A model generated the notes under the pieces. The model did no database searches. It saw nothing but the letters and a program-made list of their open reading frames with translations, and had not been told where the DNA came from. The position numbers and the translations under genes are program-made. 64,000 bases of DNA from Sphingobacteriaceae bacterium (GTDB taxonomy: Bacteria > Bacteroidota > Bacteroidia > B-17B0 > Aurantibacillaceae): the NCBI GenBank assembly GCA_002319075.1, contig NVQB01000001.1:2108001-2172000 (forward strand), in the 5' to 3' direction. Shown here in pieces: positions 21,191 through 38,778 of the stretch. Every line of letters begins with the position of its first letter. Position 1 is the stretch's first letter.

Positions 21191-21234
21191 CTTGTCATTT
21201 CGAGCGTAGTCGAGAAAGACAAGTGTCGAGAAAT
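21191..21234. repeat. Intergenic repeat element between nuoM and nuoN
   Basis: CTTGTC at 21191-21196 is inverted as GACAAG at 21218-21223 around TTTCGAGCGTAGTCGAG, and a second GTCGAGAAA follows. Read on the minus strand it gives CTCGACTACGCTCGAAATG, a form I recognise as a common Bacteroidota intergenic repeat. A related copy lies near 30593. Confidence 0.55.
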
Positions 21235-22694
21235 TATTTTATACTCATTAATACAACTTTCGTCGCTTCTTCTGCAATGTCATTTAAGGGTTTTGGATAC
21301 ACACCAAAAGCAATAATAACAGCACAAATAATAATTAACACGGCTTTATCCGTATTAGCTAGAGGACCAAAAACAATATTGGAATCTCTTCTTTCGCCCA
21401 ACATAATAGTTTGATAGCTGCGTAACATGTAAACGGCTCCTAGAATGATCGTGAGACCTGCGAAGGCTGCAATTACTGCACTGAACTGGTAAACGCCATT
21501 GATTAATAAAAACTCTCCCACAAATCCGTTAGTTAAGGGTAAGGCTACAGACCCTAAAACAATGATCAGGAACAACACTGCAAAGTTTCCATTCATACTT
21601 CTGATCCCGCCCAGTTGGTTGATCTCGCGGGTACCTGTATGTAAAAACAAAATATCTGCGATAAAGAATAAACCTACCACGTTTACACCATGCGATAACA
21701 TTTGCATTAGAGCTCCTTGAATACCTTGTTGATTCGCTGCCAAAATACCTGCTGAAATCAATCCCACGTGGGCAATAGAGGAATAAGCTATTAAACGTTT
21801 AAAATCTTTTTGTACAATAGCAATACACGAAGCGTAAACAATTCCGATCACTGAAAGTCCGATGGCCGTGCCGCCCCATTGTTCTAATCCTAAAGGAACA
21901 ATTGGTAACAACCATTTAATAACCCCGAAGGTACCCATCTTTAACATAATCCCTGAAAGAAGCATGGTTCCTTGCGTTGGAGCATTTACATAAGTATCGG
22001 GTTGCCAGGTATGAAAAGGAAAGATCGGCATCTTAATAGCAAATGCAATGAAGATCAACCAGAATAAAATGCCCTGTTGGTGCGCATTTAAACTTTTTCC
22101 CGCATTGTATAGATCTTGTATGGCCCACGAATGCGCGCCGTTTATGTTGGTGTGATTATACAAATAAATAAAGCCAACCAGCATAAATAACGACCCGAAT
22201 AAAGTGTAGACGAAAAATTTAAAAGTTATCGCGCCACGATTTTCTCCACCCCATGTTAAACAGATAAAATAAATTGGTATTAAAGCTAATTCCCAGAACA
22301 CATAAAACAAGAATCCATCATTAGCTACAAACACCCCAATCAGTGCCATTTGCATAACTAATATCAGTCCATAAAAATTCTGAACGTTTCTGTAGGTATT
22401 GCTATAAGAAGTCAAGATAATTAATGGAACCAGAAAAGTGGTTAGAAGTACCATCAAAATACTCAGGCCGTCAATGGCTACAGAAAAATGAATTCCAAGA
22501 GACTGAACCCAAACGCAATCAAACTTTAATAAGGCTGAATCAGGATTGTGTTTAAATTGGTACAAAGCTCCGAGTGAAATTATAAATTCAACCACACTCG
22601 CGGCCATGGCCAGGTTGCGCGCTCCGTTTCCTTTTGCAAGGAACACCAGGAAGGCTGCTAATAAAGGAAAAACTATTAATAAAGCTGTCAACAT
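21234..22694 (-). CDS. nuoM: NADH-quinone oxidoreductase subunit M
   Basis: Antiporter-like proton-pumping subunit of complex I, 486 residues with about 14 hydrophobic helices. Typical stretches are FYVFWELALIPIYFI with the essential glutamate, AIKMPIFPFHTWQPDTYVNAP and KRLIAYSSIAHVGLISAG. It lies 15 bases downstream of nuoL in the operon. Nothing unusual is seen in the protein itself. Confidence 0.96.
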   Translation of the reverse strand: MLTALLIVFPLLAAFLVFLAKGNGARNLAMAASVVEFIISLGALYQFKHNPDSALLKFDCVWVQSLGIHFSVAIDGLSILMVLLTTFLVPLIILTSYSNTYRNVQNFYGLILVMQMALIGVFVANDGFLFYVFWELALIPIYFICLTWGGENRGAITFKFFVYTLFGSLFMLVGFIYLYNHTNINGAHSWAIQDLYNAGKSLNAHQQGILFWLIFIAFAIKMPIFPFHTWQPDTYVNAPTQGTMLLSGIMLKMGTFGVIKWLLPIVPLGLEQWGGTAIGLSVIGIVYASCIAIVQKDFKRLIAYSSIAHVGLISAGILAANQQGIQGALMQMLSHGVNVVGLFFIADILFLHTGTREINQLGGIRSMNGNFAVLFLIIVLGSVALPLTNGFVGEFLLINGVYQFSAVIAAFAGLTIILGAVYMLRSYQTIMLGERRDSNIVFGPLANTDKAVLIIICAVIIAFGVYPKPLNDIAEEATKVVLMSIK

Positions 22695-22709
22695 AAAATC
22701 TATTTCTTA

Positions 22710-24596
22710 TTACATTAAAAAAGTTAGCAGAATAATCAGTACCACGCCCAGAGTCATGCTCATAAGGTAAAAACCAATGTTTCCATTTTGTAAATATCTT
22801 ACTGAAGAACCTATGCCTCTAACAGTACTGCCTACACCATTAACGATACCGTCAATAAACTGTGTATCCACGTGTTTGTAAAAGAATTTAGAAAGTCCAT
22901 CTAAAGGTCTGCGAATTACGGCATCATAAAATTCATCTACATAATATTTATTGTAAACCACACGTTGCCAAGGTCTGAGTTGCTCTTCTTTGTCAGCAGG
23001 CTTAACATTGTATTTAATGAACATACGGAAAGTAAAATAGATGGTTGCAAGCGCCGCGCTAAGTGCAATACCCATTAAAATCCATTCTGTTTCGTGACTT
23101 AAAGTCGAATAAGTCGGACGAAGAATTACAGATTCTAAATTATGATGCATCCAGTTTGGTAAATGCCAGAACTCTGGTAAACCTAATACGCCGCCCGCTA
23201 CAGAAAGAATAGCCAGGATAATTAAAGGAATAGTCATAGAAGCCGGCGATTCATGCAGGTGGTGTTCCTGGTCGTGCGTTCCTCTGAATTTTCCGAAGAA
23301 AGTAAGGAACAACATGCGGAACATATAAAATGCCGTCAGCATAGAAGCAAAAGTCCCTAATAGCCAAAGGATCGGACTGTGCTCGTAAGTGTGGGCGAGA
23401 ATTTCATCTTTACTGAAGAAACCGCTAAAAGGAAACACCCCGCTAATAGCAATAGTAGCAAGCAGCATAGTGCCGAAAGTAATTTTTATCTTCCCCTTTA
23501 ATCCTCCCATTTTACGAATGTCTTGCTCACCGCCCATAGCGTGAATAACTGAACCTGCTCCTAAAAACAAAAGTGCTTTAAAGAACGCGTGTGTAGTTAC
23601 GTGGAATACCGCCGAACTGTATGCTCCTACTCCAAGTGCAAGAAACATCAATCCTAATTGTGATACGGTAGAGTATGCAAGGATTTTTTTAATGTCTGTT
23701 TGAAAGACCCCGATAGTAGCTGCAAATAAAGCAGTGATCACCCCAACAATAGCCACTGTTTCGCTGGCTATTGGACTCATAGAGTAAAATACATTCGAAC
23801 GCACTACCATAAAAATACCGGCAGTAACCATGGTAGCAGCGTGAATTAAGGCAGATACAGGTGTTGGACCGGCCATCGCATCCGGCAACCAGGTATACAA
23901 AGGAAGCTGAGCTGATTTACCCATGGCTCCAATAAATAATAATAAAGCTATAGCAGTCACCGTCGAAGAACTTGCTGCACTTGGGTTGTCAAAAACCTCT
24001 GTGTAACTCACGCTTCCGTAGCTCACGAAGATTAAAATAATTCCCAATAAAAAACCAAGGTCACCAATACGGTTCATGATGAATGCTTTTTTTGCAGCAT
24101 TGTTATAAGCCGTGTTTTTATACCAGAACCCTATGAGTAAATAAGAACACAATCCTACTCCCTCCCAACCTACAAAGGTGATCAGGTAATTGTTTCCCAT
24201 TACTAATAACAACATAAAGAAAACGAAGAGGTTCAAATATGTGAAGAACCTGGCAAAACCGTCATCATCGTGCATATAACCGGTAGAATAAATATGAATT
24301 AAAAATCCAATTCCGGTAATGATCAATAAAAACACACTGGATAACGGATCGATTAAAAATTCAAAAGGAATTTTTAATGTGTCAGAATTAATCCATGAAA
24401 AAACATTTACTACTTGTTCCTTGTTTTGCGAAGCTTGTAACTCCACGAATACAAGTACTGAAACTACAAAAGACGCGAAGATTGCTAAAGACGCGATAGT
24501 ACCGCTTAATCCTTTACTTATTTTCTTTCCAAAAAATCCGTTAATAAGAAATCCTATTAATGGAAATAATGGAATGAGAGCTGCTAATTTGATCAT
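22710..24596 (-). CDS. nuoL: NADH-quinone oxidoreductase subunit L
   Basis: The distal proton-pumping subunit of complex I, 628 residues. It has LITFVGWEGVGLCSYLLIGFW, SAQLPLYTWLPDAMAGPTPVSALIHAATMVTAG (shown in parts: AQLPLYTWLPDAM and VSALIHAATMV) and KILAYSTVSQLGLMF. The C-terminal extension, which in this subunit forms the long lateral helix anchoring it to nuoM and nuoN, ends with a final hydrophobic helix. It lies between nuoK and nuoM in standard order. Confidence 0.96.
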   Translation of the reverse strand: MIKLAALIPLFPLIGFLINGFFGKKISKGLSGTIASLAIFASFVVSVLVFVELQASQNKEQVVNVFSWINSDTLKIPFEFLIDPLSSVFLLIITGIGFLIHIYSTGYMHDDDGFARFFTYLNLFVFFMLLLVMGNNYLITFVGWEGVGLCSYLLIGFWYKNTAYNNAAKKAFIMNRIGDLGFLLGIILIFVSYGSVSYTEVFDNPSAASSSTVTAIALLLFIGAMGKSAQLPLYTWLPDAMAGPTPVSALIHAATMVTAGIFMVVRSNVFYSMSPIASETVAIVGVITALFAATIGVFQTDIKKILAYSTVSQLGLMFLALGVGAYSSAVFHVTTHAFFKALLFLGAGSVIHAMGGEQDIRKMGGLKGKIKITFGTMLLATIAISGVFPFSGFFSKDEILAHTYEHSPILWLLGTFASMLTAFYMFRMLFLTFFGKFRGTHDQEHHLHESPASMTIPLIILAILSVAGGVLGLPEFWHLPNWMHHNLESVILRPTYSTLSHETEWILMGIALSAALATIYFTFRMFIKYNVKPADKEEQLRPWQRVVYNKYYVDEFYDAVIRRPLDGLSKFFYKHVDTQFIDGIVNGVGSTVRGIGSSVRYLQNGNIGFYLMSMTLGVVLIILLTFLM

Positions 24597-24631
24597 ATGT
24601 TTTTATTTACAATTTTATGCGGACCTAAATC

Positions 24632-24943
24632 CTAGTTTTTTAAATTTCCTAAAAGATCGGTATCAATACTTTTAATGTTTCTATAAATCATGGTTAAGAT
24701 GGCGAGGCCCACTGCAACCTCAGCTGCTGCAACTGCCATAATAAAGAATACAAACACTTGTCCGTTTGGATCTTTATGCAGCACACTAAAAGCAACCATC
24801 AATAAGTTAACCGCATTAAGCATTAATTCAATGCACATAAATAAAATGATCGTATTTCTGCGAGCCATTACTCCAACTGCTCCAATAATGAAGAGTACAG
24901 TGCTTAACAGCAGATAAAAATTTATTGAAATTCCGTTTATCAT
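24632..24943 (-). CDS. nuoK: NADH-quinone oxidoreductase subunit K
   Basis: A small three-helix membrane subunit of complex I, 103 residues. It carries the conserved membrane glutamates in [15 protein letters not shown] and [14 protein letters not shown], which belong to the proton path between the hydrophilic arm and the antiporter subunits. The length matches the family. It sits between nuoJ and nuoL. Confidence 0.95.
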
Positions 24944-25006
24944 ATTTTCTATTATCTATTATTTTTCGCTAAAGCTGTCTATTGGCTTTCAACTATAACT
25001 ATTAAT

Positions 25007-25519
25007 TTATTTAATTTCTTTCTTACCAATCATAATTGCACCCACTAAAGCTGATAATAATAGTATTGATACAATTTCAAAAGGGAATAAAAATTCATGA
25101 AATAATACGTGACCCAAATTTTTTACCAATCCGATATTTTCATGTCCATAAGAACTAAGTCCCAGCTGAGAGCTTCCTCTTAATGCTCCAACCAAAACGA
25201 TCAACAACATTCCTCCAAGCACACCAGAAATTATTTTGGAAACCAGTGTCCTTCTTGGTTCCGCGTCTTCATTTAAGTTCATAAGCATGATCACAAACAA
25301 AAACAACACCATGATAGCTCCCGCGTAAACTGCAATGTGCACCACAGCAAGAAATTGCGCATTCAATAAAAGATAATGCCCTGCAATGCAGAAAAAAGTC
25401 AGCACCAAATAAAGCACCGAGTTAACCGGATTACGGCTAAATACCACCATTAAAGCAAACATGATCGCCATAAAAGAAAGTATTCCGAAAATCCATTGTG
25501 TAATTGTGTAACCTAACAT
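25007..25519 (-). CDS. nuoJ: NADH-quinone oxidoreductase subunit J
   Basis: A membrane subunit of complex I with five hydrophobic helices, 170 residues. HIAVYAGAIMVLFLFVIML is the conserved third helix with its pi-bulge region, and the C-terminus ends in the short charged tail GKKEIK. About 60 bases on the downstream side and 80 on the upstream side separate it from nuoK and nuoI; the upstream gap contains a perfect palindrome. Confidence 0.95.
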   Translation of the reverse strand: MLGYTITQWIFGILSFMAIMFALMVVFSRNPVNSVLYLVLTFFCIAGHYLLLNAQFLAVVHIAVYAGAIMVLFLFVIMLMNLNEDAEPRRTLVSKIISGVLGGMLLIVLVGALRGSSQLGLSSYGHENIGLVKNLGHVLFHEFLFPFEIVSILLLSALVGAIMIGKKEIK

Positions 25520-25557
25520 ATTTTTATTATTTACAATTTTTTGATTTACAAATTGTC

Positions 25558-25575
25558 TCCCGATAGCTATCGGGA
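25558..25575. repeat. 18-bp perfect palindrome TCCCGATAGCTATCGGGA
   Basis: It lies in the nuoI-nuoJ spacer, 24 bases before nuoI's stop and 39 bases upstream of nuoJ's start on the minus strand. A one-mismatch copy occurs at 30631-30648, and the same outer arms recur at 34516-34544. No T-run follows on the minus strand, so it is not a simple terminator. Confidence 0.7.
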
Positions 25576-25599
25576 TGTAAATTTTTAAATCGGCAATTA

Positions 25600-26199
25600 T
25601 TAGTGTTTCCCTTTATTTAATTTTTCTGTGTGAAGTTCATTATGTTTTAATCCCGGGATTTTTTTGAATGCTAAAACTTCCGGAGTCTGACGTTTTGATA
25701 CATCAATACGTTGATCCATTTTCTCAACCAATTTATCTTTTCCGTAAATAAATCCATCACGTTCAAAATCCGAAGACACAATTCTATCCGTTAAGAAGAT
25801 CGCTTCTTTCGGACAAGCCTCTTCACAAAGTCCGCAGAAGATGCAACGCAACATGTTTATCTCATAAGTCTTTGCGTATTTTTCTTCGCGGTACAATCCC
25901 TCTTCTCCTTTTTTGCGCTCACCACTTTCCATGGTGATTGCTTCGGCAGGACAAGCCACAGCGCACATACCACAAGAAGTACAACGCTCTGCGCCGTTTT
26001 CATCACGTTTTAAAACATGTTGTCCACGGTAAATCGGTGCGAATTCACGCTTTTGTTCCGGGTACATAATAGTCGGTCTCTTTTTAAAAAGGTGACTGAA
26101 TGTAATGATCATGCCATTGATGATAGCCGGAAAATACATCTTCTCTACAAAGCTTTGTTCCTTATTAGAAACGACTACTTTTCTGTTCGTTAACTGCAT
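25600..26199 (-). CDS. nuoI: NADH-quinone oxidoreductase subunit I
   Basis: The 8Fe ferredoxin-like subunit of complex I, 199 residues. The two [4Fe-4S] centres (N6a, N6b) are bound by Cys73, 76, 79 and 83 (CTSCGMCAVACP) and by Cys119, 122, 125 and 129 (CIFCGLCEEACP). An amphipathic N-terminal segment (YFPAIINGMIITFSHLF) fits membrane attachment. It lies 10 bases after nuoH. Confidence 0.96.
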   Translation of the reverse strand: MQLTNRKVVVSNKEQSFVEKMYFPAIINGMIITFSHLFKKRPTIMYPEQKREFAPIYRGQHVLKRDENGAERCTSCGMCAVACPAEAITMESGERKKGEEGLYREEKYAKTYEINMLRCIFCGLCEEACPKEAIFLTDRIVSSDFERDGFIYGKDKLVEKMDQRIDVSKRQTPEVLAFKKIPGLKHNELHTEKLNKGKH

Positions 26200-26209
26200 T
26201 TCTAGTATT

Positions 26210-27265
26210 TTAAAATTTTATATTTCCTCTGAAATATTCTACAACTACGGTTAAAGCCAAGTTTAAAAGCGATAATGGTAATAAACTCTTCCAGCCTAAA
26301 TTCATTAATTGATCGTAACGAAATCTCGGGATTGTCCAGCGGATCCACATAAACACTGAAATAAATATTAAAGTTTTTGTGAAATAAGCCCCAAAACCGA
26401 TTAAAGAAATAATCCATGAACCTTCCTGTAATCCCAATGCATTGTATAATTCATGAGCAAAAGGGAAATTATACCCACCGAAATAAAATCCTGCCATTAC
26501 TGCTGAAGACACAAACATATTGATGTACTCTGCAAATAAAAACAATCCTAGTTTGAATGCAGAATACTCTGTGTGGTAACCACCAACTAATTCGGTTTCA
26601 CATTCGGCAAGGTCAAAAGGGGCGCGGTTAGTTTCAGCCAAAGCACACACAAAGAAAATTAAAAATCCAAGTGGCTGCCAAACAATGTTTGCTACACCTG
26701 CATCCTGTTTTGCAACAATCTCAGCGAAACTTAAAGTACCTCCCGAAGTAATGATTAAAGCAATAAGTGCAATACCCATAGCTAATTCATAACTGATCAT
26801 CTGTGCCGAAGAACGAATAGCTCCTAACAACGAATACTTATTATTAGATGACCAGCCACCGATCATAATCCCATAAACGCCAATAGAAGTAACTCCTAAT
26901 AAAAAGATTACACCCACGTTAATGTCGGAGATCTGCATGGCATAGGTCGTACCATTCATAATAGCCGGCGCACCCCATGGAATAAGCACTCCAGCCATAA
27001 TAGCCGTTACTATGAATAATCCAGGAGCTAATACGAATAAAAATTTATTCGAAACGTTCGGAATGATTTCTTCTTTAAACAACATTTTTCCACCATCGGC
27101 TAAAGGTTGCAATAGGCCCCAAACACCGGCGCGGCTAGGACCCCAGCGATCCTGCAGCAAACCTGCAAACTTACGTTCCCACCAGGTAGAGTATGCCGCA
27201 ATTCCTAATGAGACTGCAAAAACGGCCACACAGATCAATGATTTATATATGATAAATTCTAACAT
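26210..27265 (-). CDS. nuoH: NADH-quinone oxidoreductase subunit H
   Basis: A membrane subunit of complex I that forms much of the quinone chamber, 351 residues with eight or nine helices. Diagnostic stretches are ERKFAGLLQDRWGPSRAG, the acidic loop ETNRAPFDLAECETELVGG and HTEYSAFKLGLFLFAEY. The order and 11-base spacing from nuoG are as expected for one operon. Confidence 0.96.
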   Translation of the reverse strand: MLEFIIYKSLICVAVFAVSLGIAAYSTWWERKFAGLLQDRWGPSRAGVWGLLQPLADGGKMLFKEEIIPNVSNKFLFVLAPGLFIVTAIMAGVLIPWGAPAIMNGTTYAMQISDINVGVIFLLGVTSIGVYGIMIGGWSSNNKYSLLGAIRSSAQMISYELAMGIALIALIITSGGTLSFAEIVAKQDAGVANIVWQPLGFLIFFVCALAETNRAPFDLAECETELVGGYHTEYSAFKLGLFLFAEYINMFVSSAVMAGFYFGGYNFPFAHELYNALGLQEGSWIISLIGFGAYFTKTLIFISVFMWIRWTIPRFRYDQLMNLGWKSLLPLSLLNLALTVVVEYFRGNIKF

Positions 27266-27276
27266 CTTATTTAGTT

Positions 27277-28260
27277 CTATGGTTTTTTATCTAATGGCAT
27301 AAAGCCCAGCGCTTCTTGTTGTTTCATGATTTGAACCTTCAACTCGTTCAAATTCTGATAATGATTTTGAGAAATTACCGAGGCACGTGTTATAGGCGAT
27401 GGTCCTTCAATTACCCAGTCACTTTTTTGCTTGTGATCATAGCGGCAAGTATTACAAATAAATTCTTCTACTTCATCCCACTGATCTTTGCGTGCTGTAA
27501 CACGAACCACTTCTTCGCCTTTTAACCACACACGTGTTTTACCTGAACAGGTCGGACAGTTACGATGCGCATCTACTGGTTTTGTAAACCATACACGTTG
27601 TTTAAAACGGAATGTTTTATCGGTTAAAGCTCCAACCGGACAAACATCAATAACATTTCCAGAGAAATCGTTATCAATTATTTTTTCAATATATGTAGAG
27701 ATTTCAGAGGCATCGCCACGGGCAATAACACCATGCACACGGTTATCCGTAATTTGATCGGCGGTTTTTACACAACGGTAGCATAGGATGCAACGGTTCA
27801 TGTGCAATTTAATTTTATCGCCGATGTCGATCATTTCAAACTCGCGACGTTTAAATTCGTAACGCGTTTTTGCGGCCCCATGTCCGTAACCCAAATCCTG
27901 TAAGCTACACTCACCCGCCTGGTCACAAACCGGGCAATCTAAAGGATGATTGATCAATAAAAATTCAACAACACCTTTACGTGCTTCTAAGACTTCAGGA
28001 TTTGTAAAATTCTCAACCACCATACCATCCATTACCTCAGTTCTGCATGAAGCAACTGGTTTAGGCATTGGTGTTGGATTGGCAGTACTTCCCTGTGTAA
28101 CTTTTACAATACAAGTACGGCAATACCCGCCACTGGTTTTTAATTTGGAATAATAGCACATCGCCGGCGGTGCAACCTCAGCGCCAATCATGCGGGCAGC
28201 CTGAAGAATGGTTGTTCCCTTAGGCACATCAATTTCTTTTCCGTCTATAGTTACTTTCAT
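27277..28260 (-). CDS. nuoG: NADH-quinone oxidoreductase subunit G, short form
   Basis: An iron-sulfur subunit of the peripheral arm, 327 residues against roughly 700-900 in proteobacterial NuoG. It keeps the [2Fe-2S] ligands Cys35, 47, 50 and 72, the N5-type His105/Cys109/112/118 and the [4Fe-4S] ligands Cys157, 160, 163 and 207. After these the large molybdopterin-like domain is missing, but a remnant with CPTC (235-238) and CNTC (269-272) remains and could bind another metal. Short NuoG is known in Bacteroidota. The frame ends cleanly, so this is not a frameshift artefact. Confidence 0.93.
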   Translation of the reverse strand: MKVTIDGKEIDVPKGTTILQAARMIGAEVAPPAMCYYSKLKTSGGYCRTCIVKVTQGSTANPTPMPKPVASCRTEVMDGMVVENFTNPEVLEARKGVVEFLLINHPLDCPVCDQAGECSLQDLGYGHGAAKTRYEFKRREFEMIDIGDKIKLHMNRCILCYRCVKTADQITDNRVHGVIARGDASEISTYIEKIIDNDFSGNVIDVCPVGALTDKTFRFKQRVWFTKPVDAHRNCPTCSGKTRVWLKGEEVVRVTARKDQWDEVEEFICNTCRYDHKQKSDWVIEGPSPITRASVISQNHYQNLNELKVQIMKQQEALGFMPLDKKP

Positions 28261-28261
28261 A

Positions 28262-29239
28262 TTAATTACAATTCTTTTTAATGAGCTCTCCCGCTTCTAT
28301 ATCCGAAGGGTTTAGTATCAATAATTTTTTCCACGATTCACAAGCTGCTTTTTTCTGATCAAGCTTAAGGTGCATTTGCGCTTTATTAAACCACGCATCC
28401 TTATGATCAGGATTATATTTCAAACATGAATCAAATTTATGAAGTGCCGCTTCATATCTTCCGCTTGACAAAGTTTTCATACCCTCATCGAAAAAACGCG
28501 AAGCCTTTTGTTTCCGGTAATAAAGTGCCATCTTTTCAACGCCATCTGAACTACAATAAGTTTGTACAAATTCTTCCGCTTCTTGCTTACGAATATCTGA
28601 CTGTATCATTTTATTCCAGACCTCACAGGCTTTATCTTTTTCTCCCAATGCCATGTGCATCTTCCCTTTGTCAAACAAAGCGTATTTATTTTGCGGTTCA
28701 ATACTCAGACTTTTAACAAATTGTTCCTGCGCTTCTTTAAAATTACCTTGCTTTTCAAATTTATGACCTTCATTCCAGAATTGCATTGCCTGCTCATGTT
28801 TAGCTTGTTGCTCGGGAGACAATTTGGCTTGACCAGGAATTGCGCTTAACGTTCCAAGATTTTTAAAGGAAAAGGGAACTGTCATATAGACTTTTACCTT
28901 TTTATCTTTGTCTACACCCGATGTCCACAGGGGCATAGATTTTACGACACGCAGAGCTTCTTTATCTAAAGAAGATGAACCGGAACTCTTAAGGATCAAA
29001 GGATTAACTATATTACCATTTGTATCTACAAGGAATTTTACAAAAGCCTTTCCGCTTTCGCCACGTTCCCTGGCTTCTGCAGGAAATCTGGTGTTTTTAT
29101 TTATATACTCCATCATAGAATTCACTCCTCCGGGGAACTCCGGCATCTTATCTGCCAACACCAATGCAGAATCGTTCTGTGCTGATGTAAATCCAACAGA
29201 TAAAATACTGATAAATGCTATAAGGATGCTTTTTCTCAA
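28262..29239 (-). CDS. Exported TonB C-terminal-domain / TPR protein inside the nuo operon
   Basis: A 325-residue protein. It starts at a TTG (29237-29239) directly after nuoF's TAA and ends one base before nuoG, so it is embedded in the operon. The signal peptide is MRKSILIAFISILSVGFTSAQ. Residues about 30-128 match the TonB C-terminal domain (MPEFPGGVNSMMEYI, GKAFVKFLVDTNGNI, LDKEALRVVKSMP). Residues about 140-325 form two related TPR blocks, each ending in an unpaired Cys and sharing YALFDKGKMHMALG / DAWFNKAQMHLKLD. No N-terminal anchor like that of true TonB is present beyond the cleavable signal. Its role in or near complex I is unknown. Confidence 0.82.
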   Translation of the reverse strand: MRKSILIAFISILSVGFTSAQNDSALVLADKMPEFPGGVNSMMEYINKNTRFPAEARERGESGKAFVKFLVDTNGNIVNPLILKSSGSSSLDKEALRVVKSMPLWTSGVDKDKKVKVYMTVPFSFKNLGTLSAIPGQAKLSPEQQAKHEQAMQFWNEGHKFEKQGNFKEAQEQFVKSLSIEPQNKYALFDKGKMHMALGEKDKACEVWNKMIQSDIRKQEAEEFVQTYCSSDGVEKMALYYRKQKASRFFDEGMKTLSSGRYEAALHKFDSCLKYNPDHKDAWFNKAQMHLKLDQKKAACESWKKLLILNPSDIEAGELIKKNCN

Positions 29240-30577
29240 TTAAGCGACAATTTGATTTAATCTGTTATAATGCGAAATATCAACGAATTTTTTATTTCTC
29301 GCAATTTCTAAAAACTCATGCTTGAAATGACGAATTGCAGCTGCCACGGGCCATGCAGCAGCTTCGCCTAAAGGACAAATCGTTTTTCCTTCAATTTTAC
29401 TTTGAATGTCCCACAACAATTCTACATCACTTTCATTCGCAGTTCCATTTAAAAATTTCTTCAGGATCTTTTCCATCCAACCTGTTCCTTCGCGACAAGG
29501 AGAACATTGTCCGCAAGATTCGTGATGGTAAAAACGGGCAAACGTAAATAAATTTTTTACGATACTAGTGTCTTCATCCATTACGATAAATCCACCTGAA
29601 CCTAACATCGTGCCTGTTGCAAAACCACCGTCACCAAGACTTTCATAAGTCATTAAACGCGGTTCGCCTTTTGCTGTTTTTAAAATCAATTCTGTTGGAA
29701 GAATAGGTACAGAAGAGCCTCCTGCAACTACGGCCTTCATCTTTTTACCGTTGCGAATCCCGCCACAATATTCTTCGCTGTAAATAAATTCTTCAACGGG
29801 TACACCTAATTCAATTTCATAAACACCCGGCTTGTTAATATGTCCTGATGCAGAAATTAATTTAGTTCCTGTAGATTTTCCGATACCAATTTTTGCATAT
29901 TCTTCGCCACCCATCATCACGATTGGACAAACAGCTGCAATTGTTTCTACGTTATTTACAACCGTAGGGCAGCCCCATAACCCGGCAACAGCAGGAAACG
30001 GAGGCTTAATGCGTGGATTTCCACGTTTGCCTTCCAGCGATTCTAATAAAGCTGTTTCTTCTCCACAGATATAAGCACCACCACCTACTTGTACATGGCA
30101 ATCGTGAGAGAAATCTGTACCTAAAATATTTTTTCCTAATAAGCCAGCAGCATAAGCTTCCGCAATAGCAACTTCTAAAATACGCGCAACATAAAAATAT
30201 TCTCCGCGGATATAGATATAAGATGTTTTTGCCCCGAGTGCATAAGAAGAAGTAATCATGCCTTCAATTAAAGCATGAGGAATTTTCTCCATCAAATACC
30301 GGTCCTTAAAGGTTCCAGGTTCCGATTCATCTGCATTACAAACCAAATAACGAGGCACACCTTCAGGTTTTGCTAAAAAGCTCCATTTAAGTCCCGTCGG
30401 GAAACCAGCGCCCCCACGTCCACGCAGACCTGATTTTTTTACCTCATCCGTTACCTGATCAGGGGTCATGTTTTTCAGTGCTTTCTCTACTGAAGCATAA
30501 CCTCCATTTGAACGATAGACCTCCAGAGTGTGAATTCCCGGCACTTTATCGTTGTGTATTAATAATTTTTTACCCAT
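29240..30577 (-). CDS. nuoF: NADH-quinone oxidoreductase subunit F
   Basis: The NADH- and FMN-binding catalytic subunit of complex I, 445 residues. It shows the NADH-binding GLRGRGGAGFPTGLKW, the FMN-binding region GAYICGEETALLESLEG and the ligands for [4Fe-4S] centre N3 in CGQCSPCREGTGWM with a distal Cys in TICPLGEAAAWP. Its stop codon is immediately followed by the TTG start of the TonB_C/TPR gene. Unlike in E. coli, where nuoG follows nuoF directly, that extra gene intervenes. Confidence 0.97.
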   Translation of the reverse strand: MGKKLLIHNDKVPGIHTLEVYRSNGGYASVEKALKNMTPDQVTDEVKKSGLRGRGGAGFPTGLKWSFLAKPEGVPRYLVCNADESEPGTFKDRYLMEKIPHALIEGMITSSYALGAKTSYIYIRGEYFYVARILEVAIAEAYAAGLLGKNILGTDFSHDCHVQVGGGAYICGEETALLESLEGKRGNPRIKPPFPAVAGLWGCPTVVNNVETIAAVCPIVMMGGEEYAKIGIGKSTGTKLISASGHINKPGVYEIELGVPVEEFIYSEEYCGGIRNGKKMKAVVAGGSSVPILPTELILKTAKGEPRLMTYESLGDGGFATGTMLGSGGFIVMDEDTSIVKNLFTFARFYHHESCGQCSPCREGTGWMEKILKKFLNGTANESDVELLWDIQSKIEGKTICPLGEAAAWPVAAAIRHFKHEFLEIARNKKFVDISHYNRLNQIVA

Positions 30578-30592
30578 TACTCTAATTTTTAT

Positions 30593-30654
30593 GTCACTCT
30601 GAACGCAGTCGAAATTGTCATTCTGATCTTTCCCGACAGCTATCGGGAGAAGAA
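30593..30654. repeat. Composite intergenic repeat between nuoE and nuoF
   Basis: The spacer begins with GTCACTCTGAACGCAGTCGAA (positions 30593-30613), related to the repeat at 21191. It continues into GTCATTCTGATCTT, then TCCCGACAGCTATCGGGA at 30631-30648 (one mismatch to the palindrome at 25558) and AGAATGA, which is complementary to TCATTCT upstream. The right half can therefore fold into an extended hairpin. Confidence 0.6.
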
Positions 30655-30660
30655 TGATTT

Positions 30661-31242
30661 TTATAAAGTGTTTTTATAATCCTTATCTGTGTAACTTTTT
30701 AGCTTTCCTTCTGCTTTATAATCAGCCAGAATTTTATCTACCTTTTCGTAAGTTAGATTTTCGTGGAAGCTTGCCCCACACTGCATCATCGGTGCGGTTC
30801 CGCAAGACCCTAAACATTCTGCCACTTTTAAAGAGAACATTCCGTCTGCACTTGTTTCGCCCACTTTAATGTTCAGTTTTTTCTCGATGTATTTTACAAT
30901 ATCTTCTGCGCCATTTAACCAGCAAGAACTCGTCTGGCACACTTCAAGAACACATTTACCCATAGGTTTTAAATTGTACATCGTGTAAAAAGATGCCACT
31001 TCAAAAACTTCAATGGGTTTTACTCTTAAAATATCTGCAACATAATCCATTACCTCTGGACTTAACCAACCGCCAAATTCGGCTTGTGCAACGTGTAATA
31101 CAGGCAACATAGCCGACTTGCGTTTTTCAGGAGGATAATGTGAAATAATCGTTTCAACAGTAGCCATCGCTTCTTCACTGAATTTTATTTCAGCGCGCTT
31201 TGTCGTGTTAAACTCTTGTGTTCCGTGAACCTGTGAACTCAT
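30661..31242 (-). CDS. nuoE: NADH-quinone oxidoreductase subunit E
   Basis: A thioredoxin-like [2Fe-2S] (centre N1a) subunit of complex I, 193 residues. The four cluster ligands are in EVCQTSSCWLNG and AECLGSCGTAPMMQ. The helical N-terminal part (RKSAMLPVLHVAQAEFGGWL) is typical. The normal partner nuoF follows, separated by 83 bases that contain repeat sequence. Confidence 0.95.
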   Translation of the reverse strand: MSSQVHGTQEFNTTKRAEIKFSEEAMATVETIISHYPPEKRKSAMLPVLHVAQAEFGGWLSPEVMDYVADILRVKPIEVFEVASFYTMYNLKPMGKCVLEVCQTSSCWLNGAEDIVKYIEKKLNIKVGETSADGMFSLKVAECLGSCGTAPMMQCGASFHENLTYEKVDKILADYKAEGKLKSYTDKDYKNTL

Positions 31243-31263
31243 ATTCTAATAATTATAAATTTT

Positions 31264-31326
31264 GAATTTTAAATGTTGAATTTCGTTCCAATTCATTTAG
31301 CATTTAAAATTTATCATTCAACATTT
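31264..31326. repeat. AT-rich inverted repeat between nuoD and nuoE
   Basis: GAATTTTAAATGTTGAAT at 31264-31281 is answered in two pieces by CATTTAAAATT at 31301-31311 and ATTCAACATTT at 31316-31326. It fills most of the 87-base spacer. A partly duplicated imperfect hairpin is likely in the transcript; its role is unknown. Confidence 0.5.
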
Positions 31327-31329
31327 CTT

Positions 31330-32541
31330 TTAAGCGTCTAATTCTCCCGCAATTACATTCATACTGCTCATAGTAAGAATAGCATCTGACAATAAACCAC
31401 CTTTTATCATTTCAGGATAAGCCTGGTAATAAATAAAACAAGGTCTGCGGAAATGCAGGCGAAATGGTGTTCTACCGCCATCACTGATCAAATAAAATCC
31501 TAACTCTCCATTTCCTCCTTCTACACAGTGATAAACTTCGCCTTTAGGAATTTCTGTTTCACCCATCACAATTTTAAAGTGATAGATCAAAGCTTCCATG
31601 TTATTGTATACTTCTTGTTTTGGTGGCAAAAAGAAATCAGGCACATCGGCATGCGAAGGACCAGCCGGCAAATTTTTAATAGCTTGTTTGATGATCTCTA
31701 AAGATTGCCACATTTCTTCGTTACGAACCGTGAAACGATCGTAAGTATCACCGCTCGTTCCAACCGGAATTTTAAAATCAAAATCCTGGTATGAGCAATA
31801 AGGTGTAGCAACGCGTACGTCATAATCAACGCCAGCAGCACGAAGGTTCGGACCTGTAAAGCTATATTCTAACGCGCGTTCTGCAGTAATCGGACCACAG
31901 TTAATTGTTCTGTCCATGAAAATCTTATTGCGCATTAAAAGTTTGTTGAACTCGGTTAAGGCAGCAGGAAAATCTTTTACAAATGCATTAATGCGATCCC
32001 AGGTGATTTTACTCCACTCATTATCAAAACCACCAATACGGCAAATGTTGGTTGTTAAACGAGCTCCACAGATACTTTCGAAAATATCGTAAATATGTTC
32101 GCGCCATTGAAATAAATAGAGGAAGCCGGTTGTTGCGCCCGTATCTTGGCCAATAATGGTGTTACAGATAATATGATCGGCAATACGTGAAAGCTCCATG
32201 ATAATTACACGTAAATAATCTACGCGTTTCGGAATTTCTATCTGCAGCAATTTCTCGACAGTAGTATGCCATCCAATATTATTGATGGGAGATGAACAAT
32301 AGTTCATACGATCAGTAAGGGGTGTTATCTGCGCGTATGGTCTGCGTTCAGCTAACTTCTCAAAAGCTCTGTGAATATAACCGCAGGTAGGAACAGCATC
32401 GTGAATAATTTCACCGTCCATTTTTAATACATTCTGAAAAATACCATGCGTTGCAGGATGGGTAGGCCCAAGGTTCAGCGTGGTGTACTCTTTTTCAATT
32501 GTATCAGGAGGGGGTGTAATCGTATTTTCTTTTTTACTCAT
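31330..32541 (-). CDS. nuoD: NADH-quinone oxidoreductase subunit D
   Basis: The 49-kDa-type subunit of complex I, related to the large subunit of NiFe hydrogenases and forming part of the quinone site; 403 residues. It shows LGPTHPATHGIFQNVLKMDGE (seen as GPTHPATHG), the GYIHRAFEKL loop and VEGGNGELGFYLISDGG near the C-terminus. NuoC and NuoD are separate genes here, not fused as in E. coli; nuoC ends 23 bases upstream. Confidence 0.97.
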   Translation of the reverse strand: MSKKENTITPPPDTIEKEYTTLNLGPTHPATHGIFQNVLKMDGEIIHDAVPTCGYIHRAFEKLAERRPYAQITPLTDRMNYCSSPINNIGWHTTVEKLLQIEIPKRVDYLRVIIMELSRIADHIICNTIIGQDTGATTGFLYLFQWREHIYDIFESICGARLTTNICRIGGFDNEWSKITWDRINAFVKDFPAALTEFNKLLMRNKIFMDRTINCGPITAERALEYSFTGPNLRAAGVDYDVRVATPYCSYQDFDFKIPVGTSGDTYDRFTVRNEEMWQSLEIIKQAIKNLPAGPSHADVPDFFLPPKQEVYNNMEALIYHFKIVMGETEIPKGEVYHCVEGGNGELGFYLISDGGRTPFRLHFRRPCFIYYQAYPEMIKGGLLSDAILTMSSMNVIAGELDA

Positions 32542-32564
32542 TGTCTTGTGGTTCTTGAGTTAAA

Positions 32565-33065
32565 TTAACGTCCAAACATTTTATCCTCTTTGTCTTCGCG
32601 GGTTTGATCTTCCAAAGGATACTCTTTCCGCATTGGGAAAATATCCATTTCATCCACGTTTAAAATGCGAACTAAATTCGGATGGCCTGTAAAACGTACT
32701 CCGAAAAAATCATACGTCTCGCGTTCCATCCAGTTAGCACCAGCCCAAAGGTCAGTAGCTGTAAGAATTTCAGGTTTACTAATATCAAAAAATGTTTTGA
32801 TGCGTATGCGCATATTTTTTGGCATGTTGTGCAGGTGATAAATAACCCCGAGTTGTTTTTCGTCGGCGGTTTGCATGCCTGTAAGGTCTGTTAAGAAGTG
32901 AAAATTTAATTCAGGATCTTCTTTTAAAAATTTAAGAATCTCATGTGCCTTTGTATGATCAACTGTAAATACAGGAAAGTTGTATAACAACTCTGCTTCC
33001 AGGTGTAAGCCCGGGAACTGTGTCATCAGCTTCTCATTTACTTTGTCCAGTGTTTCTTTACTCAT
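32565..33065 (-). CDS. nuoC: NADH-quinone oxidoreductase subunit C
   Basis: The 30-kDa-type peripheral subunit of complex I, 166 residues. The conserved block WMERETYDFFGVRFTGHPNL and the ending FPMRKEYPLEDQTRED identify it. It carries no cofactor and joins the NuoB/NuoD core. It lies 21 bases after nuoB. Confidence 0.96.
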   Translation of the reverse strand: MSKETLDKVNEKLMTQFPGLHLEAELLYNFPVFTVDHTKAHEILKFLKEDPELNFHFLTDLTGMQTADEKQLGVIYHLHNMPKNMRIRIKTFFDISKPEILTATDLWAGANWMERETYDFFGVRFTGHPNLVRILNVDEMDIFPMRKEYPLEDQTREDKEDKMFGR

Positions 33066-33086
33066 ATTTGTTTTTTCTTCTGAGTT

Positions 33087-33650
33087 TTATTCGATTCCAA
33101 AACTGTTCATTAAATCCTTGTATTGCGGGGAGTGGCGTCTGCGACCGGATTCATTCTTCGCTAATTCCTGGATTTTCAAAATACCATCAATGATTTGCTC
33201 AGGACGAGGAGGACAGCCAGGAACATAAACATCTACCGGAATAATTCTATCAATACCCTGCAAAACACTGTAAGTGTCAAAAATCCCGCCACTACTGGCG
33301 CAAGCACCAACACTCAGTACCCAGCGTGGCTCTGCCATTTGCTCGTAAACCTGTCTTAAAGTAGGCCCCATTTTTTTTGCGATAGTTCCCATTACCATTA
33401 AAAGATCGGCCTGGCGAGGCGAAAAACTTAAACGTTCCATCCCAAAACGGGCCAGATCGTAATGAGACCCCATGGTTGCCATAAATTCGATCCCACAACA
33501 TGAAGTTGCAAAGGGAAGTGGCCATAGAGAATTAGCGCGTGCCATCCCAATAACCTCATCTACTTTAGTAGCGAAAAAACCAGGACCTTCAATGCCTTCC
33601 GGCGTTTTAGCAATCTCCAGTTTTGTTTTTTTTATAATTTCCTGTGACAT
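33087..33650 (-). CDS. nuoB: NADH-quinone oxidoreductase subunit B
   Basis: The subunit carrying the terminal [4Fe-4S] centre N2 that reduces quinone, 187 residues. The vicinal cysteines Cys51-Cys52 in [11 protein letters not shown] are its hallmark; the remaining ligands lie in [10 protein letters not shown] and VPGCPPRPE. The conserved arginine-rich loop [18 protein letters not shown] is present. It lies second in the operon after nuoA. Confidence 0.97.
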
Positions 33651-33652
33651 TC

Positions 33653-33720
33653 TTTTAAGTTTTTAGTTGTTAGTGCTTAGTTTTTAATGATTGAATATTA
33701 AAAACTCAAAACTAAACACT
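33653..33720. repeat. AT-rich inverted repeat between nuoA and nuoB
   Basis: AGTGCTTAGTTTTTAAT (33672-33688) is matched by an imperfect inverted arm, ATTAAAAACT...AACTAAACACT, at about 33697-33720, in which AAAACT is duplicated. It occupies nearly all of the 78-base spacer between the first two operon genes. Confidence 0.5.
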
Positions 33721-33728
33721 TATAATTC

Positions 33729-34100
33729 TTAATCTTCCCACTGCAAAGCTTTCTTTGAAAGCATGTAATAAAATCCTACCAGCAATAAGGCAATAAAGCT
33801 GAAAACTTCTATTACTCCAAGTAATCCTAATTCTTTAAAATTGGCCGCCCATGGATACATAAAAATAACCTCTATATCGAACAATACGAAAAGGATAGCA
33901 ACCAGGAAATACTTGATGGAGAAAGGCACGCGGGCGTTACCTTGCGTTTCGATTCCACACTCAAACGACTCTAATTTTACTTTTGTTTTGCGCTTTGGGC
34001 CTAGTGCGTGCGTTGCAATTAACGACACAACAGCAAATCCCACAGCAATTGTAAACATAATAAAAATGGGTAGGTAGTCTAGTGGTGAATCAGTACTCAT
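33729..34100 (-). CDS. nuoA: NADH-quinone oxidoreductase subunit A
   Basis: A small membrane subunit of complex I with three helices, 123 residues. The loop KLESFECGIETQGNARVPFSIKY (core FECGIE and RVPFSIKYF) and the helix AILFVLFDIEVIFMYPWA are diagnostic. It is the first gene of the operon; its promoter should lie in the 34101-34328 gap, where I find no exact consensus on the minus strand. Confidence 0.96.
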   Translation of the reverse strand: MSTDSPLDYLPIFIMFTIAVGFAVVSLIATHALGPKRKTKVKLESFECGIETQGNARVPFSIKYFLVAILFVLFDIEVIFMYPWAANFKELGLLGVIEVFSFIALLLVGFYYMLSKKALQWED

Positions 34101-37147: not shown

Positions 37148-37963
37148 TTAAAAAAGATAAGCAACTTTTACAAAAGCATTGAAGCGGTTTATTCCTCTCA
37201 CACGCATACCTGAATTTCTTTGAATGTACTCGTCTGGCTCAGGTTTGTATATATCAAAAGCGTCAACAACTCCTGCTGCCATTGCAGCCACATTCATCGT
37301 CCATCCGTAGTCAATTATCAAGTGCTTACCCACTATCCGGCAGTTTCCCATACCAAATAACATATCCGGAAACAGATAGCGTTGCTTTATATCTCCAAAA
37401 TCATTAAAGGTGATGTCTTCATAAGTGTAGGGATATGAACTGGTTTGTATTCTATCCTCTACTCTCATTTCATTAGGATTGTAGCTGGCCGTTCTCACAT
37501 TTAAAGTGGCCCCCAATAAAATATATTTACCCCAGGGCGCAACATACTTTCTTCGGAAAAGCTTGGTATAGAGCGCGAAATTTCTGGCTTTAATTTTAAT
37601 CTGTCCTTGAGGATCTGCCAGGTAGGGCGAAGTTCCATAACCCGCTATTTGGTACGTCGAGAAAGAGATATAGCCAGCGTTGTAATATTCCGATTTCATG
37701 TCTACCTGTCCGGTATTATTATAAGTAGATTTATATAGTTTAAAGGAAGCGCCAAGTGAAAAACGTTTTCCAAGAACCTGTTCGATGAAAAATTCATGCT
37801 GGGTGTTAACAATACTGGTGCCATAGTCTGCCAGAGCTGCAGTGATTGCAGGATTTATATTAAAGCCATAACCTATGGTAGTTTTCTTTCCCATATAGCC
37901 CGGAGCCTGTCCATGAGAGACTAAAGAACTTGCTACGATTAAAAAAAATAAAAATCTTCTCAT
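37148..37963 (-). CDS. Putative outer-membrane barrel protein, paralogue 2
   Basis: A 271-residue protein with signal peptide MRRFLFFLIVASSLVSHGQ and a C-terminus ending in aromatic Phe (VKVAYLF), as in many outer-membrane barrels. The body has alternating hydrophobic strands (TIGYGFNIN, FSLGASFKLY, YILLGATLNV). It is clearly related to the upstream neighbour: both share QAPGYMGK at the mature start, RRKYVAPWGKY/DRYLAPWGKY, SYNPNEM/SYNPDEM and the ending RFN-F--K--YLF. I do not recognise a named family. It is the third gene of a unit with an M48 protease. Confidence 0.65.
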   Translation of the reverse strand: MRRFLFFLIVASSLVSHGQAPGYMGKKTTIGYGFNINPAITAALADYGTSIVNTQHEFFIEQVLGKRFSLGASFKLYKSTYNNTGQVDMKSEYYNAGYISFSTYQIAGYGTSPYLADPQGQIKIKARNFALYTKLFRRKYVAPWGKYILLGATLNVRTASYNPNEMRVEDRIQTSSYPYTYEDITFNDFGDIKQRYLFPDMLFGMGNCRIVGKHLIIDYGWTMNVAAMAAGVVDAFDIYKPEPDEYIQRNSGMRVRGINRFNAFVKVAYLF

Positions 37964-37977
37964 GTTTCAACACTTCG

Positions 37978-38778
37978 CTAGAAGAGATATCCTATTTTGA
38001 GATAAAAATTAAATCTGTTTACAGCTGCCGATCTGTTTTTAGCTGTTCTTTCAATATAGTTGTCAGGAGTTATTTCATTAAGATCCAATGCATCTATAAA
38101 CATCTGCGTCATAGCCAGGCAACCAATGGTATACCCATAATCGAGCGTTATAGTATTCGCAATAACACGGCTGTTCCCGTTCCCAAAAAAGATATCTACC
38201 GATTTATAGGTTTGTCGTGTAGGGCCGAAGTCATTATAAAAATAATCCTGGTAAACATACTCTCCTGTCACAAAAGACTCAACACGCGTTTCACCAGCAA
38301 CACCCATTTCATCGGGATTGTAAGAAACGATACTTTGATTCAACGAAATTCCTAAGGTAAAATATTTGCCCCAGGGTGCCAGGTAACGGTCTTTAAAAAA
38401 TTTACCATACAGTTTATAATTCCGCCCTTTCAGCAGATAACTCCCGCTTGGATGAGAATTTATGCTCAGACTGTAAACCGATTGGTAGGCCTGATCTAAC
38501 ATAACACCTGCCTTATTGTTGTATTTATAGCGAAAAAACTGCGCAGACAAGCCTAGCGAGAATTTTTTATCCAGGGCACATTCTATAAATAGTTCGTGCA
38601 AAGTGTTGAAAGCATTGTCGCTAAAACCTCTTCCAATACTGTTAAACGCTGGGTTTGCATAAATGCCATAACCGGCAGAAAACCTTTTACCCATGTACCC
38701 CGGAGCCTGAGAACTCACCTTTAAAACTGAGCAACAAATTAAAAGCACCCAGCCAGCTTTTTTTATTCCTGACATCAT
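37978..38778 (-). CDS. Putative outer-membrane barrel protein, paralogue 1
   Basis: A 266-residue protein with signal peptide (MSGIKKAGWVLLICCSVLKVSSQ after an initial Met) and mature start APGYMGKRFSAGYG. It has the same architecture and C-terminal Phe (LKIGYLF) as the 37148 gene; the pair looks like a tandem duplication that has diverged considerably. Only 3 bases separate it from the M48 protease gene upstream, so they are very probably translated together. Function unknown. Confidence 0.65.
   Translation of the reverse strand: MMSGIKKAGWVLLICCSVLKVSSQAPGYMGKRFSAGYGIYANPAFNSIGRGFSDNAFNTLHELFIECALDKKFSLGLSAQFFRYKYNNKAGVMLDQAYQSVYSLSINSHPSGSYLLKGRNYKLYGKFFKDRYLAPWGKYFTLGISLNQSIVSYNPDEMGVAGETRVESFVTGEYVYQDYFYNDFGPTRQTYKSVDIFFGNGNSRVIANTITLDYGYTIGCLAMTQMFIDALDLNEITPDNYIERTAKNRSAAVNRFNFYLKIGYLF

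Follow-up and report, generated by a model that had tools for sequence, protein, structure and literature searches.

A gene slot between nuoF and nuoG in a Bacteroidota complex I operon that probably exchanges cargo, with a likely periplasmic TonB_C-TPR passenger

In the genus studied here, the complex I operon probably has a variable cargo slot at the junction between nuoF and nuoG, and the occupant of that slot in the window (the whole 64,000-nucleotide stretch of DNA that we analyzed) is probably a co-expressed periplasmic passenger. We observed the position and direction of the inserted genes, their turnover, and scars of insertion. Genes would enter and leave this junction in the sense orientation while nuoF and nuoG are kept open, and would thereby ride the operon transcript. 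The window protein is very probably not a complex I subunit. The features discussed are located in Table 1; G and L numbers denote genomes and loci, respectively.

Table 1. Location of the slot, its occupant, and the surrounding operon in the window
Feature	Position	Strand	Evidence
Gene for a putative exported TonB_C-TPR protein of 325 aa, which occupies the nuoF-nuoG slot	28262..29239	-	ORF, Pfam, full-length homologue at the G016 junction
Predicted signal peptide, about residues 1-20	29180..29239	-	Sequence reading and crude hydrophobicity rule
TonB C-terminal domain, residues 49-126	28862..29095	-	Pfam PF03544, NCBIfam TIGR01352, AlphaFold, Foldseek
TPR block 1, residues 147-230	28550..28801	-	Internal duplication and TPR match
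TPR block 2, residues 242-325	28265..28516	-	Internal duplication and TPR match
nuoF stop TAA and abutting TTG start, same frame	29237..29242	-	Sequence; recurs in other loci
nuoF, upstream wall of the slot	29240..30577	-	ORF, Pfam
nuoG of 327 aa (short form), downstream slot wall	27277..28260	-	ORF, Pfam
nuoA to nuoM, slot-containing operon; a nuoN-sized ORF ending at 19689 comes after	21234..34100	-	ORFs

The TTG start codon of the window gene at 29239 abuts, in frame, the nuoF stop codon TAA at 29240-29242, and nuoF and the TonB_C-TPR gene share a reading frame across the stop. At the other end, the stop codon of the gene ends at 28262 and the nuoG ATG starts at 28260, leaving one base between them. 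These coordinates confirm the tight packing described in the initial annotation. The next possible starts lie at residues 26-28 and 32, beyond the signal peptide, and the TTG is therefore needed to retain it. A TTG immediately after the nuoF stop is also found at L129, L134, L148, and L136, whereas it lies 1 base past the stop at L124 and 6 bases past it at L132. In several other species, too, a TonB_C gene begins with TTG or GTG at the nuoF stop or close to it, and the same junction in G016 carries a homologue that spans the full length of the window protein (48-49% identity). Because such starts recur and a full-length homologue exists, the arrangement is not due to chance. The gene may be translated by re-initiation at the abutting TTG. 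Read-through of the stop to yield a NuoF fusion was rejected, as the signal peptide would then end up within a cytoplasmic protein, and the TTG of L124 is out of frame. Promoter-like sites for the window gene showed no excess over shuffles, and no terminator-like site was found inside the gene on its own strand. The gene had previously been held to be necessarily expressed with complex I. The position behind that claim stands, and because the gene is locked in the operon in sense, co-expression would be the natural expectation.

The window protein adds a new member to a domain family already known. In it, the Pfam TonB_C model matched residues 49-126 with 64.6 bits (cut-off 24.6), and Pfam TPR families matched best over stretches such as 156-184, 257-302, and 281-313. 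An 84-residue block occurs twice in tandem to form the TPR tail (32% identity between the copies, E = 4e-16), and the same two-cysteine pattern closes each block. The paired cysteines would suit an oxidizing periplasm if, as predicted, the protein resides there. When modeled using AlphaFold with a seven-row alignment, the protein had a mean pLDDT of 73, with 10-residue means of 80-96 over residues 31-120 (TonB_C) and lower values in the helical repeats. Foldseek matched it to solved TonB C-terminal domains, namely 6i97_D (E = 7.8e-4, 1.6 Å over 77 columns), which is in complex with the receptor FoxA, and 5lw8 (E = 2.3e-4), as well as to many TPR proteins. The signal peptide call relied on visual inspection and a crude hydrophobicity rule; the rule serves as a hint only, since it labeled 25 of 64 sense insert ORFs as exported and was surely wrong for two HepT-like ones. 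The Pfam matches, the duplication, and the signal peptide seen by eye agree with the earlier description of an exported-looking protein with a TonB_C domain and two TPR blocks.

Reading of the sequence revealed neither a membrane anchor for ExbB/ExbD nor a periplasm-spanning linker in the window protein; it has a cleavage-like site between TSA and Q, and only about 28 residues precede the TonB_C domain. In the local neighborhood, no exbB or exbD lies beside the gene, which has nuo genes on both flanks. The product is thus predicted to be exported and to remain soluble in the periplasm, with its TonB_C domain free of a membrane tether and followed by the two TPR blocks. Judging from its folds, its likeliest place of work would be the periplasm or the outer membrane, where the TonB_C fold could dock β-strand or TonB-box partners and the TPRs could bind a second protein.

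We searched 40 genomes of the genus with the window nuoF and nuoG and found both in 39 (G013 matched neither). Stretches of up to 20 kb were taken per locus, the gaps at nuo junctions were measured, and gaps of more than 300 bases were counted as inserts; the window nuo genes were named by Pfam (F, G, and H) or by eye (all others). Most of these genomes consist of tens to hundreds of contigs. The nuoF-nuoG junction was closed in 37 genomes, including that of the window; G002 and G045, in which it is split over contigs, are counted among the 39 but not the 37. An insert was present at 22 of the 37 closed junctions. The other 15 had gaps of -4 to 144 bases, nine of them -4 to 1. The nuoF and nuoG frames were open in 36 of the 37 genomes; the exception, L158 (G003), has a broken nuoF frame and a gap of 838 that is overstated (686 by another measure). 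Inserts at the remaining junctions numbered 0/32 (nuoA-nuoB), 1/37 (nuoB-nuoC), 3/37 (nuoC-nuoD), 6/38 (nuoD-nuoE), 5/39 (nuoE-nuoF), 0/38 (nuoG-nuoH), 0/37 (nuoH-nuoI), 2/36 (nuoI-nuoJ), 11/36 (nuoJ-nuoK), 0/35 (nuoK-nuoL), and 0/33 (nuoL-nuoM), which brings the pooled operon to 50 of 435. Examined as a hotspot, nuoF-nuoG holds differing gene contents between the same core genes, far above the other junctions.

General looseness of operons in the genus was rejected by comparison with three control operons, in which the same measure detected inserts at 2 of 1,362 junctions overall: 0/925 in the S10-spc-alpha region (35 loci), 1/197 in the atp operon (37 loci), and 1/240 in the alternative complex III operon (35 loci). 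The rplB control covered 35 of 35 matching genomes (a weaker second match in G048 was left out), the atp control 37 of 39 (without G011 and G021), and the alternative complex III control 35 of 35 (second copies in G009, G017, and G018 were left out). As only three control operons were measured, others may also contain such slots.

TonB_C genes occupy 14 of the 37 closed nuoF-nuoG junctions (13 detected by HMM, plus L146, where the gene had been masked by a longer overlapping ORF). Two more lie on the nuoG side of the split junctions in G002 and G045, giving 16 of 39 genomes. The other 8 of the 22 inserts hold only non-TonB_C genes. Occupants were identified by Pfam in ten representatives and by similarity or eye in the others; these eight inserts hold lipoprotein genes (L120, L126), nucleotidyltransferase/HepT genes (L121, L123, L158), ORF6N genes (L123, L156) or, in L133 and L145, four-helix-bundle genes whose family match is broken by a stop. 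An additional gene accompanies TonB_C at L124, L129, L132, L141, and L146. At L047, the slot encodes a TonB_C protein, a lectin-like T9SS-type protein, and a second TonB_C protein, and L146 combines TonB_C with a lectin-like protein related to that of L047 (46% over 295 residues; lectin match below the Pfam cut-off). Separately, we noted slot genes with TonB_C-TPR-TonB_C (L050) and TonB_C-TonB_C (L068) architectures, suggesting domain shuffling among slot residents.

The nearest relative of the window, G001 (91% identity over the nuo proteins), carries a DUF6252 lipoprotein gene in its slot and no TonB_C gene. Because L132 has both a TonB_C gene and a lipoprotein related to that of G001, loss from a shared array is one route to this difference. 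The initial annotation had reasoned that absence from all close relatives, together with signs of recent insertion, would argue for a passenger. The gene is indeed missing from G001, but its homologue sits at the G016 junction, and TonB_C genes recur across the genus as counted above; nor, among close relatives, does a TonB_C gene accompany complex I wherever complex I is present.

TonB_C was found in 14 of 22 slot inserts compared with 0 of 28 inserts at other nuo junctions (27 of the 28 HMM-scanned; Fisher P = 3.4e-7, although the genomes are related and hence not independent). Across the nuo inserts, 64 of 67 ORFs are in sense, and a homologue in another insert was found for 55 sense ORFs and for none of the three antisense ORFs; an 8,464-base nuoI-nuoJ insert was excluded from the ORF and HMM sets. 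No integrase or transposase was found in the window insert, which consists of the single TonB_C-TPR gene, or among 10 representative insert products.

The presence of TonB_C at nuoF-nuoG was mapped on two trees. A nuo tree with 51 rows (39 genus genomes and 12 named loci) required at least 14 changes, 13 of them forced by well-supported branches, and shuffled labels gave a mean of 16.4, with 75 of 500 shuffles as low as 14. An independent ribosomal-protein tree (35 genomes) required at least 10 changes, 8 of them forced (shuffled mean, 11.9; 88 of 500 as low as 10). Compared with sampled paralogues elsewhere, the slot TonB_C domains group together (5 changes; shuffled mean, 18.6; 0 of 500 as low), yet they are not one clade. 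The domains nearest to that of the window, as judged over few columns, are those of L124, L052, L047, and L043, all located in the slot. In trees of 107-113 columns, TonB_C conflicted with the species tree for three groups (AU P = 0.0003, 0.02, and 0.006), which had been chosen from the species tree after the first TonB_C tree was viewed; a single vertical copy at the slot was rejected on these tests. The data allow that genes move between species' slots or that an old array was thinned differently, and probably both happen. The window gene would then come from fast-evolving TonB_C lineages that live mainly in the nuoF-nuoG slot and that either moved between species or were differentially lost from a former array.

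Two inserts retain copies of the start of nuoG. In L121, a copy of 33 bases (31 identical) lies between two nucleotidyltransferase/HepT pairs, and in L123, one of 35 bases (32 identical) lies downstream of the final HepT gene. Next to the L123 copy come 41 bases, 38 of them identical to the 3' end of the ORF6N gene of that locus; this stretch is the remnant of a lost second ORF6N insertion before nuoG. The copies span the first 28-35 bases of nuoG and may show how cargo lands before nuoG. New cargo would probably land through short homology to the slot walls and, at times, leave a copy of the nuoG start behind, although scars are present in only 2 of 22 inserts. Each copy (L121, offset 638-671; L123, offset 1811-1897) also gives rise to a short open frame, of about 10 and 14 codons, respectively. 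By the same measure, wall copies were absent from the other 20 of the 22 slot inserts, the window's included, from 27 scanned inserts at other nuo junctions, and from 20 slot inserts of named loci. A copy of the nuoF tail was found in none of the 22 slot inserts or the 20 named-locus slot inserts. Over these sets, the search for slot-wall duplication on insertion yielded nuoG-start copies in L121 and L123 alone.

In G002 (L135, L136), the contig bearing nuoG opens with 30 bases resembling the nuoF end of the other contig (28 identical, with a different stop codon), and distinct slot genes follow each of the two nuoF 3' ends. Copying of the nuoF end, or a mixture of strains in the assembly, could account for this. 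Whole slot contents may be swapped by recombination in the flanking nuo genes. Identity profiles of 14 chosen pairs showed no clear recombination breakpoint at nuoF/nuoG and no clear peak of the kind that recent exchange would leave.

Four pairs of short TonB_C slot residents had dN/dS values of 0.09, 0.13, 0.18, and 0.35, compared with 0.003-0.05 for nuoF and nuoG in the same pairs. By these ratios, the short residents are functional and under purifying selection, yet fast-evolving. Synonymous sites between the window gene and its G016 homologue are saturated and give no ratio.

Other junctions hold different cargo. A four-helix-bundle gene is present in 10 of 11 nuoJ-nuoK inserts, and 15 of 114 matches to this family fall in nuo operons. 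At nuoJ-nuoK of L120, L124, L125, L128, L148, L155, and L158, S23 genes of about 440-470 bp are flanked by inverted-repeat-like ends seen by eye (TTTACAATTT ... AAATTGTAAA). A different pair of ends occurs at L126, L129, and L141, and short remnants at L127 and L144 point to decay of earlier insertions. Toxin-antitoxin-like pairs lie at nuoD-nuoE of L060 and L068, which presumably resemble DUF433/DUF5615, and at nuoE-nuoF of L121 (DUF2442/DUF4160 by Pfam), L123, and L061. An O-methyltransferase-like gene is found at nuoC-nuoD in three species (L121, L135, L156), and the 8,464-base nuoI-nuoJ insert of L158 contains three large sense ORFs (1,724, 512, and 533 residues) with signal-peptide-like starts. 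Elsewhere in the window, two adjacent, similar exported proteins encoded on the minus strand (37148-37963 and 37978-38778) look by eye like tandem duplicates and sit beside a protease-like gene (38782-40944).

Beyond the genus, we examined 66 named loci with nuoF below 90% identity, including L054 (= G041), which is still within the genus; eight named loci that duplicate genus genomes were left out. Here too, nuoF-nuoG was the junction most often filled (12 of 61), followed by nuoE-nuoF (8 of 64). Only 1 of the 12 filled slots was of the TonB_C kind, a double TonB_C protein at L068. The comparison of nuo operons suggested in the initial annotation thus places a TonB_C gene at this junction in 16 of 39 genus genomes and in 1 of these 12 filled slots. 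In other lineages, nuoF-nuoG of L056, L057, L059, and L083 encodes exported proteins of about 286-290 residues that look outer-membrane-like by eye, with that of L083 more distant from the rest.

These observations can be read in other ways. TonB_C might be an ancestral operon member with a respiration-tied job, such as coupling envelope receptors to the energized state, that was lost many times independently without exchange of cargo. Its confinement to nuoF-nuoG among the nuo junctions, the TTG or GTG with which many longer members begin at the nuoF stop or close by, and its presence in deep-branching members are all consistent with this account, and arrays with two TonB_C genes, as in L047, could explain the tree conflicts through differential loss. 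We nevertheless consider it unlikely: it has to accommodate at least 14 changes (nuo tree) or 10 changes (ribosomal tree), the conflict with the species tree, unrelated genes at the same junction, and the insertion scars, and 9 of 15 empty slots have gaps of -4 to 1 bases, which would seldom be expected from independent deletions. A steady resident with many independent losses retains some probability.

The other possibility put forward in the initial annotation, that the protein partners complex I from the periplasmic side in assembly or docking, now appears quite improbable. The gene does lie inside the operon in sense, short TonB_C relatives in the slot are under purifying selection, and TPR tails are common in assembly factors. 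However, 23 of the 37 closed junctions, including that of the nearest relative, lack TonB_C (15 are empty and 8 have other genes only) while nuoF and nuoG are retained; the dN/dS of the relatives (0.09-0.35) indicates far faster evolution than that of nuoF/nuoG (0.003-0.05); and NuoF and NuoG are cytoplasmic. Operon position is therefore no proof of a partner role. We regard as very improbable a functionless, neutral passenger tolerated because it is sense-oriented and terminator-free. Such a passenger would match the turnover, which is near that of shuffled labels, the many other occupants (two of which, the L133 and L145 four-helix-bundle genes, have their match broken by a stop), and the lack of a sense-strand terminator-like site inside the window gene, but not the intact 325-codon frame with its domains, the full-length homologue, or dN/dS values of relatives well below 1. 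The passenger alternative already raised in the initial annotation fits best in a wider form, that of a cargo slot.

Large core-complex operons are usually thought to resist intrusion. In this genus, the ribosomal, ATP synthase, and alternative complex III operons do so (2/1,362), whereas the complex I operon does not (50/435). We tentatively propose, as a possibility less likely than not, that the complex I operon of these Bacteroidota is an expression dock. Genes for exported envelope proteins and toxin-antitoxin-like pairs would be exchanged there in the sense orientation, the nuoG start would be kept or copied so that the operon goes on working, and the dose of cargo would follow respiratory expression. 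On this tentative proposal, nuoF-nuoG would be the preferred slot, with nuoJ-nuoK, nuoD-nuoE, and nuoE-nuoF as lesser ones. If this is true, respiratory operons would be integrase-free loading sites for adaptive genes. Our results raise the questions of why one core operon, and mainly one of its junctions, tolerates or attracts cargo swapping and whether cells gain from tying exported proteins to respiratory expression.

Extra genes between nuo genes have precedents: the complex I clusters of Paracoccus denitrificans and Rhodobacter capsulatus, each a single described cluster, contain unidentified reading frames. The inserts described here are likewise genes of unknown role between nuo genes, but their occupants vary by species within one genus, and they come with counts and control operons. 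The window protein has the same fold and motif as the TonB/HasB C-terminal domain (PF03544; PDB 6i97, 5lw8, 2m2k). Unlike TonB/HasB, it has a cleavable-looking signal peptide, no visible membrane anchor, and a duplicated TPR tail after the domain, and its gene is flanked by nuo genes instead of exbB/exbD. TonB itself, as laid out in a paper on TonB and TolA (PMC12204202), comprises a membrane helix, a spanning region, and the C-terminal domain; by sequence reading, the window protein lacks the first two. The four-helix-bundle (S23) family PF05635, found at other nuo junctions and in the slots of L133 and L145, is the family of the 23S rRNA intervening-sequence elements covered in a paper on the Coxiella IVS (PMC4990558). 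Here, it lies in a protein operon instead of rRNA, and it is not the family of the window gene. Titles and abstract openings in the open-access literature searched did not name variable genes in the Bacteroidota nuo operon. The closest parallel is with horizontal-transfer hotspots that lie between core genes, for which Oliveira et al. (2017, PMC5635113) proposed flanking-gene recombination as the mechanism where integrases are absent. Like those hotspots, nuoF-nuoG is one site between two core genes with rapid gene turnover and, as is often the case there, no recognizable mobile element. Unlike them, it lies within a tight core respiratory operon and contains between one and a few genes, and every nuo-insert ORF with a homologue in another insert is in sense. 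The slot is thus a known type of hotspot in a new setting, inside the complex I operon.
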